This document shows positions 49,584 to 53,955 of a stretch of DNA of 64,000 nt, piece after piece. The notes beneath the pieces were generated by a model. It saw only the letters and a program-made list of their open reading frames with translations, did not search any database and was not told the DNA's origin. The position numbers and the translations under genes are program-made. The DNA is from Altibacter sp. (GTDB lineage Bacteria; Bacteroidota; Bacteroidia; Flavobacteriales; Flavobacteriaceae). The stretch is taken from positions 62,001 through 126,000 of the forward strand of contig NZ_JAIOHK010000035.1 in NCBI RefSeq assembly GCF_019913785.1, in the 5' to 3' direction. Positions within the stretch are counted from its first letter, which is position 1. Every line of letters starts with the position of its first letter.

Positions 49584-51287
49584 CTACTTTTCAGCTGTGC
49601 CGTTTTTCATAACGGTCGCCTGTAATAAAAATGCCATGGCCATTACCGTAACACATCCCACAAAGTTAAGCCATAAATAGGGAAGGTTGATGATTTCAAA
49701 TTCATCCATTAAGTACAGACCAATCACCAAGGCTTGATTAATTAGAGCCGCTATAAAAACAGCATTGCCTTTGATATACTTAAAGAAAAAGGCCAGAAGG
49801 AAGACCCCTAATATATTTCCGTAGAAAATCGAGCCGATTATATTCACCAATTGGATAAGGTTGTCAAACAAATTGGCGAAGCAGGCTACTAAAATCGCCA
49901 TGACACCCCACAAAAGTGTAAACCACTTGGAGGCACGCACATAGTGCTTATCATTTCGTATGCCTACATTCCGGGCATAGAGATCCATAGTAGTTGTGGA
50001 GCCCAAGGCATTCAATTCGGATGCTGTGGACGACATGGCTGCACTTAGTATTACCGCCAATAGGAGTCCGATAAGCCCCCTGGGTAGGTTTTCTAATATG
50101 AAATGCACAAAGACGTAGTCCTTATCGTTGGTTTCGGCGTCGGGATTGGCCTTTTTGATCACAGCCTTGGACTGCACTCGCAATTCGTCCTCCGTTATAT
50201 TTATGATCTGTATCTCTTCTTTCAGTAATTCTTTTTCGGAAGCATCCTCAGTTCGCGAAAATTCCAACTGTTTGGTGATGAGTTGTTCGTCCAGAGCCAT
50301 TTTTTCGGAAACCAAATCCTGATACTCCTGTGCATAGGGCGAAGCCATCACATCTTTTACCGCCGCCGGATTAAAATGCAGCGGTGAACTGTTGAATTGA
50401 TAGAACACAAAGACCATGATCCCTACTAAGAGGATAAAGAACTGCATAGGTACCTTCATAATGCCGTTGAAGATAAGCCCCATCTGACTCTGTTTTACAG
50501 ATTTCCCCGAGAGGTAGCGCTGCACCTGACTTTGATCGGTTCCAAAGTAGGAGAGGGCTAGGAAGGTACCGCCAATAATACCGCTCCAAAAGGTGTATCG
50601 GTTATTAAAGTCGAAGGAAAAATCGAGGATCTCCATTTTTCCGTTCGCCCCGGCTATTTCCAAGGCATTGGAAAGTGAAATATCGAGTGGTAGGTAATTC
50701 AGAATTAATAAAAAGGCAATAAACATACCCGCAAAGATCACCGCCATTTGTTGTTTTTGAGTAACGCTAACGGCCTTGGTGCCACCGCTCACCGTATAGA
50801 TAATCACTAAAATTCCAATGATGATATTGAGGTAGATCAAATTCCATCCCAGCACCGCAGATAGAATAATCGATGGCGCAAAAATGGTAATTCCTGCAGC
50901 CAAGCCACGTTGTATTAAAAAGAGGATGGCCGTTAGGGTTCGCGTTTTTAGATCGAATCGCGTCTCCAGATATTCGTAGGCCGTAAATACTTTTAATTTA
51001 TGATAAATAGGAATGAACACCAGACAGATCACCACCATTGCAATAGGCAGTCCAAAATAGAATTGCACAAAGCCCATCCCGTCGTGAAAGGCCTGTCCCG
51101 GAGTAGAAAGGAAGGTTATGGCACTCGCCTGAGTTGCCATAACACTCAGTCCTATGGTCCACCATTTGGCCTCATTGCCACCCTTGAGGTAGTCGGTTAC
51201 ATTTTTACTGCCACGGCTTTTATAGGTGCCGTACAGCACAATAAACAGGAGGGTACTCCCAAGTACAATCCAATCGATTTGTTGCAT
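49584..51287 (-). CDS. Sodium:solute symporter (SSS family)
   Basis: 567 residues, about 13 membrane helices. Family signs: GTYKSRGSKNVTDYLKGGNE near the start, WTIGLSVMATQASAITFLST (helix 1 sodium-site region), TYFGTDQSQVQRYLSGKS-type segment SYFGTDQSQVQRYLSGKSVK, and a later AVILSAAMSSTASELNALGS. A hydrophilic, Glu/Lys-rich insert of about 75 residues (roughly 295-370) interrupts the helices. The substrate is unknown; the PIG-L neighbour suggests a sugar-derived or amide compound. It begins 1 base after the stop of a 36-residue membrane protein. Confidence 0.93.
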   Translation of the reverse strand: MQQIDWIVLGSTLLFIVLYGTYKSRGSKNVTDYLKGGNEAKWWTIGLSVMATQASAITFLSTPGQAFHDGMGFVQFYFGLPIAMVVICLVFIPIYHKLKVFTAYEYLETRFDLKTRTLTAILFLIQRGLAAGITIFAPSIILSAVLGWNLIYLNIIIGILVIIYTVSGGTKAVSVTQKQQMAVIFAGMFIAFLLILNYLPLDISLSNALEIAGANGKMEILDFSFDFNNRYTFWSGIIGGTFLALSYFGTDQSQVQRYLSGKSVKQSQMGLIFNGIMKVPMQFFILLVGIMVFVFYQFNSSPLHFNPAAVKDVMASPYAQEYQDLVSEKMALDEQLITKQLEFSRTEDASEKELLKEEIQIINITEDELRVQSKAVIKKANPDAETNDKDYVFVHFILENLPRGLIGLLLAVILSAAMSSTASELNALGSTTTMDLYARNVGIRNDKHYVRASKWFTLLWGVMAILVACFANLFDNLIQLVNIIGSIFYGNILGVFLLAFFFKYIKGNAVFIAALINQALVIGLYLMDEFEIINLPYLWLNFVGCVTVMAMAFLLQATVMKNGTAEK

Positions 51288-51288
51288 A

Positions 51289-51399
51289 TCAGGCGTAGTG
51301 TTGCATTAAAAAATAAAAAAGCACAATGTACAGGGCATTAAATAGCAACACCAGCGTGTACTTCCATTTCCAGACGAATTTTTGTTTTTCTTCGGTCAT
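51289..51399 (-). CDS. 36-residue membrane protein, putative symporter partner
   Basis: ATG at 51399 to TGA at 51289. The product starts MTEEKQKFVWKWKYTLVLLF and continues with one hydrophobic helix (YTLVLLFNALYIVLFYFLM) and a short tail QHYA. A positively charged cytoplasmic end before the helix suggests N-in orientation. It lies 1 base after the PIG-L stop and 1 base before the symporter ATG, so all three should be translated from one message. Small subunits are known for some SSS transporters (DUF4212 type), but this sequence is shorter and not obviously of that family. Real coding is supported by the packing. Confidence 0.7.
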   Translation of the reverse strand: MTEEKQKFVWKWKYTLVLLFNALYIVLFYFLMQHYA

Positions 51400-51400
51400 A

Positions 51401-53899
51401 TTAGTTTCCCAAGGACAATAGATTAGCAAACAGGCGATAGGCACCCGGAACCCCGGCAGGGAGCTCTCTAAAGAAGCTCAGTCCTGTGTAAATATAATGT
51501 CCTTTTCCGTATTTGGCCACCAATAGCGAACCTTTTGTTTGGGGATAGCCTTTGTCGTGCATTCCCAAAATAGGGGTAAAGGCAGGATCCCACTCACCCG
51601 GGAAATAAAGTCCGCGCTCCTGCACCCAGTTCTTAAAATCGTTTTGAGTGATCTTGTTGGGCGAATTGAGTACGGTGTGATTTGGGGCTAAGATTTCTAC
51701 TTCTGAATTTTCATCGGTAACGCGATCGCGTGAAAGTTTAAGAGGTAAAGGACCTAATTCGGTATCATTCATGCCGCGACTGGTATTGTACTGAAGCAGT
51801 AGTGTCCCGCCATTATTTACATATGTATTGAGTTCGGTTTGTTTGAAATCCAATTCGGGTACCGTGTTGTAGGCGCGTATGCCCACCACGATAGCGTCAA
51901 ATTGTTTTAAATTTTCTGAAGTTATTTCTGAAGGAAGAATCGTAGTCACCGTATAACCAATTTGCTTCAGACTTTCCGGTATTGCATCCCCGGCACCGTT
52001 AATATAGCCAATATGCTGTCCCTTTTTCTGAATATCAATATGTACCACTTTTGCTTCCGAAGGCAATAGCACACTTTGAAACGGAATATGATCATAATCG
52101 ATGGTCACCAGTTCGGTATCGTAATAGGCATCACCTACTTGTACCAAGGGTTTTATATAGCCATCGTGCTGCTCCTTGGGTGGTTGTACCGTAAAGATGA
52201 CCGTTTGTTGCTGCCCCTTTTGTGAAATGCTAAAGCTGTGTTGCGCAGGTGTCACCACCCAGCCACTTGGATGTTGCAGTATTACGGTTCCGCTGATATT
52301 GTCTCGGCCCGCCCGTACGATTACAGGAATCTCTTTGGCATCGTTGGAGGCAAAAATGAGTACTTTTTCTGAAATAGCTGAAGTCACTTCAGGCAACACT
52401 TCGAAAGGGCGATACACTTCACCGGCTACCGGGTCATTGTACTTGTACACGATATTTCTTTCATAACTAATTTGCCTTCCATCAATAGTCATATAAAAGG
52501 TTACCGGAAATTGGTTGGTACGCTCAGGCACACCTATAAGACTTTTGTCATCTACCCGATACATCCCTAGTGTTCCCTTTTTACTCAGCCAATACGGAGC
52601 ACTATATTCGGTTCCTGAAAACGTTTGCTCAACACTTTCAAGCGAATACGACTTATTATACGGCAGGGGAGTAGCCATTAATGAATTTGGAAAGGCGATC
52701 ACAGTAGAGTTTACCGAATTAAGTGTCATGGAAACTTTCGAACGATTGATTGCTTCAATAGTGACTTTTACTTCTCCTTTGGGCGCAACGGTTTGTTCAC
52801 TTGCAACGGCTTCTAAATACAAACCTGTACAAGCCGCGATAATGTTCTTAATGGCTTCCAGCTTCACCGTTTTCCAATGTCCTTCGGGAAGTTTACGAAT
52901 AAGATCAAAGGCTTGTAATAATTTTGGAACACTAGCCGAAGGATTTGTAAAATCGAATTCTTTTTCCACTTCAGCCAAAAGTACTCCAATAGGGGCACCT
53001 CCCTCCAAACGCGTCCAAGTGGTGTTAATTCCGTCGAATAAATTCCCTTTTTCGGAAGGAAAATCACCTTTTAAGAATTCCAAGTATTCAGTCTGACGAC
53101 CACGTGAACCCGTACTTCCGAAGCCTTGCGATTTGTGCATACTCCGACTCAAGGAGGCAATTTCACCATTGGACAAACCAAGGGAAGGGTAGTAGCTCCC
53201 GGTTTCAACTTCCACGAGATTGGTCTTGTCGGCTTTGTCAAAATTCTCCTGACTTCCATAGAACCACCATGAGGTGTTGAAGAAGAGTCGTTTCGGTTGC
53301 CAAATACCAAATTCTTTAGCGGTTTCGGGATATTTTGTGGCATCACCCACCAGGTCAAAGGCATCAAAGCTCAACATGGCCGAAGAAGTGTGGTGTCCAT
53401 GAGTACTGCCCGGACTGCGATGATCAAATCTGTTTACAATAATATCTGGTTTAAATTTTCGGATGGCACGAACAACATCGCTCAGAACTTCATTTTTGTT
53501 CCAAATATCTAGTGTTTCATCAGGGTGTTTGGAGTACCCGAAGTCGTTGGCACGGGTAAACAATTGTTGCCCGCCATCGGTACGACGTGCCGCCAGAAGC
53601 TCTTGCGTCCGGATCACGCCAAGTAATTCTCTAATCTCGGGACCTACCAAATTTTGTCCTCCATCACCACGGGTCAACGACAGATAGGCGGTACGCGCTT
53701 TTACGTCGTTGGAGAGGTAGGAGATAAGCCTCGTATTTTCGTCATCCGGGTGTGCTGCAATGTACAAGGCCGAACCGAGGAAGTTTAACTTTTGCAGTTC
53801 GTGGTATATTTCGGAAGCGGTTGGTTTTGAAGGCTGTTGGGCAAATAGGGAGGTAATACAAAGCAATAAAAAGAATAGAGGTGCCGTACGTATGCGCAT
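51401..53899 (-). CDS. Secreted PIG-L/LmbE-family deacetylase with large C-terminal region
   Basis: 832 residues from ATG 53899; a Met 16 codons upstream was rejected because the signal peptide (MRIRTAPLFFLLLCITSLFA) starts here. The PIG-L zinc motif AHPDDEN (His50, Asp52, Asp53) follows LGSALYIA, and the second zinc histidine lies in STHGHHTSSAML. The remaining 550 residues include beta-rich segments and a GATase-like end (FDAIVVGIRAYNTVPELDFK, GGTLLLQYNTSRG). PIG-L enzymes remove acetyl groups from N-acetylglucosamine derivatives. Export to the periplasm and coupling to a sodium symporter suggest processing and uptake of an N-acylated substrate. Confidence 0.92.
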   Translation of the reverse strand: MRIRTAPLFFLLLCITSLFAQQPSKPTASEIYHELQKLNFLGSALYIAAHPDDENTRLISYLSNDVKARTAYLSLTRGDGGQNLVGPEIRELLGVIRTQELLAARRTDGGQQLFTRANDFGYSKHPDETLDIWNKNEVLSDVVRAIRKFKPDIIVNRFDHRSPGSTHGHHTSSAMLSFDAFDLVGDATKYPETAKEFGIWQPKRLFFNTSWWFYGSQENFDKADKTNLVEVETGSYYPSLGLSNGEIASLSRSMHKSQGFGSTGSRGRQTEYLEFLKGDFPSEKGNLFDGINTTWTRLEGGAPIGVLLAEVEKEFDFTNPSASVPKLLQAFDLIRKLPEGHWKTVKLEAIKNIIAACTGLYLEAVASEQTVAPKGEVKVTIEAINRSKVSMTLNSVNSTVIAFPNSLMATPLPYNKSYSLESVEQTFSGTEYSAPYWLSKKGTLGMYRVDDKSLIGVPERTNQFPVTFYMTIDGRQISYERNIVYKYNDPVAGEVYRPFEVLPEVTSAISEKVLIFASNDAKEIPVIVRAGRDNISGTVILQHPSGWVVTPAQHSFSISQKGQQQTVIFTVQPPKEQHDGYIKPLVQVGDAYYDTELVTIDYDHIPFQSVLLPSEAKVVHIDIQKKGQHIGYINGAGDAIPESLKQIGYTVTTILPSEITSENLKQFDAIVVGIRAYNTVPELDFKQTELNTYVNNGGTLLLQYNTSRGMNDTELGPLPLKLSRDRVTDENSEVEILAPNHTVLNSPNKITQNDFKNWVQERGLYFPGEWDPAFTPILGMHDKGYPQTKGSLLVAKYGKGHYIYTGLSFFRELPAGVPGAYRLFANLLSLGN

Positions 53900-53955
53900 A
53901 ATTACTTCTTTGAATTTTATGGTACTTCCAAAGATACCCAAAATCAAAAAGTAGT

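Follow-up and report, generated by a model that had tools for sequence, protein, structure and literature searches.

An open reading frame of 36 codons before its stop lies on the minus strand of an Altibacter sp. contig, with a PIG-L deacetylase gene before it and a sodium symporter gene after it. Does this frame encode a protein, and if so, which neighbour does the product serve? The window is the whole stretch of 64,000 nucleotides that was analysed, and the features needed to follow the argument are these.

51289 to 51399, minus strand: small single-pass membrane protein P0001, 36 aa (ORF translation, tblastn, selection, AlphaFold)
49584 to 51287, minus strand: SSS-family sodium:solute symporter P0002, 567 aa (Pfam SSF 1.3e-39; TIGR00813 over cut-off; model and Foldseek)
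51401 to 53947, minus strand: PIG-L deacetylase P0003 (PF02585 5.1e-14; signal peptide-like N-terminus by eye)
51397 to 51403, minus strand: PIG-L/small gene junction, TAA-T-ATG (sequence; translational coupling likely)
51285 to 51291, minus strand: small gene/symporter junction, TGA-T-ATG (sequence and gaps in relatives; coupling likely)

Read from 51399 to 51289, the minus strand translates as MTEEKQKFVWKWKYTLVLLFNALYIVLFYFLMQHYA followed by a stop; the plus strand frame of the same interval is interrupted by stops. The earlier note had the coordinates and the 36 residues right, and translation places the gene on the minus strand. Its description of a charged N-terminus and a single membrane helix agrees with the translation and with the AlphaFold model, which consists of one helix, residues 12-35 (mean pLDDT 87.9). 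The junction sequence likewise contains the one-base gap reported on either flank: the PIG-L stop TAA (51403-51401) is followed by one base and the small-gene ATG at 51399, and the small-gene stop TGA (51291-51289) by one base and the symporter ATG at 51287. Judging by this spacing, PIG-L, the small gene and the symporter probably form one transcription unit.

Selection on the frame was assessed from 42 independent close pairs of homologues, which gave a dN/dS of 0.089 (JC-corrected; raw pN/pS 0.070/0.503) and differences by codon position of 130, 41 and 328. With the frame shifted by one or two bases, the same pairs give a raw pN/pS of 0.89 and 2.16. The low in-frame ratio compared to the shifted frames indicates that the protein is under purifying selection, and in this frame only. 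We conclude from these substitution patterns that the ORF is a real, conserved protein-coding gene.

A tblastn search with the 36 residues, a check that the earlier note had proposed, finds a match at E<=1 in 255 of 299 genomes of the family. To score loci, we counted an ORF of 25-110 aa that contains a hydrophobic helix and ends -45 to +100 nt from the symporter start, at the 279 loci holding the symporter N-terminus (L310, which lacks it, was left out). By script, such an ORF is present in 267 of the 279; inspection adds L045 (where it lies ~370 nt away), L267, L296 and L301, giving 271/279. The loci come from several sets. Those chosen through the small gene itself, from ranked tblastn matches (L001-L090), score 89/90, and the named loci, the best 80 of 583 relatives and found via the symporter, 80/80. 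A search of the phylum (296 genomes, 115 with the symporter at E<=1e-60) supplied 30 loci and 60 places (L231-L290), the latter a subset picked by hand from the non-family matches; these score 29/30 and 55/60. The last set (L291-L309) was selected because tblastn with the 36 residues had missed the small gene; it derives from 20 symporter-holding family genomes, of which 19 loci were readable, and scores 14/19. At the loci found through the symporter only (L121-L309), the ORF is present at 178/189 by script and 181/189 after inspection. Some genomes, that of the window included, contribute more than one locus (258 distinct symporter sequences among 264 rows), and L280-L282 are doubtful members. 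At L014 and L163 the wrong ORF was picked automatically; they remain part of the 267 and of the gap distribution and are excluded from the covariation, tree and topology/helix-face sets.

As a control, the same ORF test was run on two further SSS types in this family and returned 2/30 and 7/30 (9/60), and by eye these ORFs are without the motif. The claim of the earlier note that such tight packing is rarely accidental is thus supported by the 255 matching genomes and by a slot filled at 271 of 279 symporter loci versus 9 of 60 controls. It had also stated that the absence of a conserved ORF in relatives, or an accumulation of stops, would refute its reading; the ORF is instead kept at nearly all loci. 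The spacing is also kept, since the gap between the small gene and the symporter falls between -13 and +16 nt at 256/267 loci, with +1 (78), +3 (39), -4 (37), -1 (20) and 0 (18) the most frequent values (the gap of L303 was set by hand).

Among 89 distinct proteins of the family, N21 and Y24 are invariant, and W10, Y14, L18, F28, Y29 and M32 are found in at least 90%. In relatives with small genomes, the protein often has no more than 28-33 residues and commonly keeps a core resembling Y....N..YW..FY..M. Beyond the family, the sequences diverge strongly (mean column identity 27% across 117 members), so the assignment of distant members used position together with the motif. A profile built from 88 family members places 30 of 57 non-family candidates higher than the top-scoring of 965 decoys, 38 above their 99th percentile and 45 above the 95th; the remaining 12 are not separable by sequence. 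Comparison of these loci shows that the small gene is kept directly before one kind of SSS symporter across the Bacteroidota. Other symporters can also have a hydrophobic ORF upstream, as the 9 of 60 controls illustrate, which would allow a chance or leader ORF without protein function. We reject this explanation as most improbable in view of the frame-specific purifying selection, the two residues invariant in 89 members, the occupancy of 271/279 loci and the control SSS loci.

P0002 has both the SSF model match and the fold expected of an SSS symporter. Its predicted structure is of moderate confidence (mean pLDDT 70.8) and by our own assignment contains 13 membrane helices, the long helix 150-198 being taken as two; there is no 14th helix at the C-terminus. 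We take its topology to be N-out, C-in, as is general for 13-helix SSS proteins. Foldseek matches the model to SiaT, NIS, SMCT1 and SGLT2, the latter from SGLT2-MAP17 complexes. The symporter was not found in the plasmid records that we searched. The SSF match is split into two stretches, which lie either side of a confidently predicted hairpin (10-residue pLDDT means 82-94) that the topology would place in the periplasm.

50124 to 50375, minus strand: helical hairpin, symporter residues ~305-388, between TM8 and TM9 (two matched stretches; model)

For P0003, translation more likely starts from the ATG at 53899; the protein has ~830 aa, and the PF02585 match is confined to its N-terminal part (46-174). 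PIG-L may provide the symporter with a de-N-acetylated substrate or with acetate.

Which of the two neighbours is the partner can be judged from their co-occurrence with the small gene. Among the 299 family genomes, 246 match both symporter and small gene, 20 the symporter only, 9 the small gene only and 24 neither (Fisher p 2e-16, a value that ignores the kinship of the genomes). Of the 20 symporter-only genomes, 16 of the 19 readable loci do have a diverged copy of the small gene. The competing proposal is that the partner is the exported PIG-L or another membrane protein, and that the small gene sits in the operon for expression only. The small gene does follow PIG-L in most loci, including 90/90 of those chosen by the small gene, where it lies between PIG-L and symporter. 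Against this, at 25 of 164 loci (the doubtful L280-L282 among them) the small gene is retained next to the symporter and the fetched flank gives no match to PIG-L, and the 9 genomes with a small-gene match only have that match weakly (E 0.008-0.7). The lasting partner is therefore most likely the symporter; from gene order and co-occurrence, the small gene is bound in position to the SSS subfamily more than to PIG-L, and we regard PIG-L or a third protein as an improbable partner.

Covariation adds little to this choice. Mean-field DCA (259 pairs, Meff 132) ranks s32-T220 as the top small protein-symporter pair and 8th overall. With PIG-L added to the alignment, s32-T220 is the top inter-protein pair (robust z 9.7) and exceeds all 73,590 PIG-L-symporter pairs (best 8.3). 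The fraction of pairs at z>5 is 0.0023 for small protein-symporter, 0.0022 for small protein-PIG-L and 0.0015 for PIG-L-symporter. As the first two are nearly equal, the overall signal does not single out the symporter, and covariation with PIG-L as dense as this is a point in favour of PIG-L. A tree-aware test of correlated change at s32-T220 (15 pairs: 5.5 the same way, 0.9 the other way, 8.6 no difference) is not significant (median p 0.125, range 0.03-0.45), and T220 ranks 2nd of 374 columns. The top 10 DCA pairs agree in membrane side (rho 0.86, p 0.0015; second model 0.64, p 0.02), the top 20 do not significantly (rho 0.26) and the top 30 reach 0.33-0.38, the agreement then fading; several list lengths were tried, and PIG-L blocks reach 0.45 in top-20 lists. 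We consider the covariation weakly suggestive, a hint that neither carries nor refutes the proposal of a subunit. No fusion of small protein and symporter was noticed in passing among the loci looked at.

K+R residues are more numerous before the helix than after it in 257 of 265 proteins, equal in 8 and fewer in none, which by the positive-inside rule places the N-terminus in the cytoplasm (N-in). The conservation moment of residues 10-33 is 11.56 at 100 degrees compared to 3.82 +/- 1.90 for shuffled columns (p 5e-5), and at the other angles tried (60-180, steps of 10) it never exceeds 5.8. By this measure one face of the helix is conserved, as expected for a helix that lies against a partner.

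Conserved face of P0001 helix 12-35, minus strand gene 51289 to 51399: W10, Y14, V17, N21, Y24/I25, F28, M32

We searched for known families to which the protein might belong. The 117 members have no Pfam match below E 0.001 (best 0.0014; 11 families at E<=0.03) and no NCBIfam match below E 0.001 (best 0.0028; 17 families at E<=1). TIGR03647, DUF4212 and DUF3311, which we take to be small subunits of SSS transporters whose models are presumably present in the searched libraries, are absent from those 17 NCBIfam and 11 Pfam families. Membership of DUF997/YhdT was rejected (PF06196 is not among the 11; hhalign probability 0.3%), as was membership of DUF485/YjcH (PF04341 is not among them either; 1.5%). 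Homology to MAP17 was also rejected, as PF15807 is not among the 11 Pfam families and no MAP17 chain occurs in the 3 PDB profile matches at E<=10. We found no description of the small-protein family in the literature, a search that covered open-licence papers, and a conserved gene of such size is not represented by any model in the curated libraries searched.

Known systems nevertheless offer useful comparisons. In E. coli, yhdT lies directly upstream of the SSS gene panF and overlaps it, and yjcH overlaps the start of actP, also an SSS gene, by 4 nt; both encode small membrane proteins. They differ from P0001 in length (80 aa for YhdT, which is of another family, and 104 aa for YjcH) and in having two hydrophobic stretches by eye. 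Deletion of yhdT resembles loss of panF, and the gene overlap makes a polar effect likely (PMC5120140). Tiny subunits with one helix are also known from other membrane complexes, as in KdpF and CydX, whose partners, a P-type ATPase and a quinol oxidase respectively, are not sodium symporters; both are named as small membrane proteins in PMC10903887. The precedent for the proposed mechanism is MAP17 (PDZK1IP1) of human SGLT2, a single membrane helix on a transporter of SSS fold and needed for its activity; the helix contacts TM13 in SGLT2-MAP17 structures, and co-expression of MAP17 greatly enhances SGLT2 activity (PMC10803289). MAP17 is an animal protein, and it packs on TM13, a 14th helix that P0002 lacks. 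It is also larger than 36 aa. By analogy with these systems, the small protein would join the small accessory proteins of SSS symporters, here as a single helix that matched none of the known families.

We suggest that P0001 is probably a single-pass accessory subunit that packs sideways on the 13-helix symporter and stabilises or activates it in the manner of MAP17. The earlier note had proposed an accessory subunit of the SSS transporter; a conserved coding gene tied by position to an SSS subfamily stands from that proposal, and we infer the binding and the effect on transport. The protein would be an inner-membrane microprotein with its N-terminus in the cytoplasm and its C-terminus in the periplasm, only a few residues beyond the helix. 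Its translation would immediately precede that of the symporter, probably through termination-reinitiation where stop and start codons overlap or nearly touch, and such coupling would mean that the two proteins are made together. The conserved aromatic/Asn face may then pack on the outside of the symporter as a permanent subunit, which would stabilise or activate the transporter as the MAP17 helix does SGLT2. With its gene kept directly before one kind of symporter, the single-helix protein is probably an overlooked small subunit of that transporter.

A more specific version, which we consider doubtful, is that the protein is a detached 14th helix that completes the 13-helix symporter in trans at the position of SGLT TM13. 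In its predicted orientation and in C-terminal placement the small protein would correspond to that helix. Compared by profile with the terminal helices of 14 SGLT-like symporters from relatives, it ranks 4 of 84 windows with a probability of 10.6%, which is not significant and no evidence of descent, and three windows elsewhere outscore it. Were this version true, the extra helix of SSS proteins would be an exchangeable regulatory module that bacteria and animals have in common in principle.

The accessory subunit has to be weighed against a role in biogenesis, in which the small protein would help the symporter to insert or fold, take part in its quality control, or control its translation through coupling, without belonging to the finished transporter. 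The order of the genes, small then symporter, with near-touching codons, fits this, as does the loss of the small gene in some lineages that keep the symporter. A pure coupling peptide, however, would need neither a conserved helix face nor a dN/dS of 0.089, and a general chaperone is not expected at one SSS type but not at two others. We judge biogenesis unlikely, and keep the accessory subunit as our preferred reading.

If the proposal is right, an apparently undescribed one-helix partner family, spread through the Bacteroidota, would be added to the SSS symporters, a superfamily to which the human transporters for glucose, iodide and choline belong. The function of such partners is established for MAP17 and unsettled for bacterial YhdT; a partner of 36 aa, together with natural lineages that lack the gene, makes its role experimentally tractable.

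Eight of the 279 loci lack the small gene (L230, L262, L276, L277, L279, L294, L299 and L309), a pattern that we count as about five separate losses. L276, L277 and L279 belong to one genus of family f85, and L278, from another f85 genus, keeps the gene; L294 and L299 are of one genus, and L309, L230 and L262 are single loci. The loss at L262 may be local, as the gene is present at L258, a locus from that genus. A fused replacement helix was looked for in the symporter C-termini of 7 of the 8 loci and rejected, with no extra helix found (L299 runs off its locus). Retention of the symporter after loss in these few lineages speaks against an obligatory subunit and shows that the small protein is dispensable in some settings, and the lineages may serve as natural knock-outs.

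At several loci outside the family (L240, L246, L248, L251, L252, L257, L263, L265 and L268), the one-helix ORF is preceded by another small hydrophobic ORF of ~50-70 aa, by eye probably with two helices, which lies 105-365 nt ahead of the symporter start; a Pfam search with four of them gave no match below E 0.1. At L283-L288 and L290 (f84) and at L289 (f111), the small gene lies at the symporter with no PIG-L found in the flank, and the small proteins of these loci end in or near NLP, NQP or NMP.
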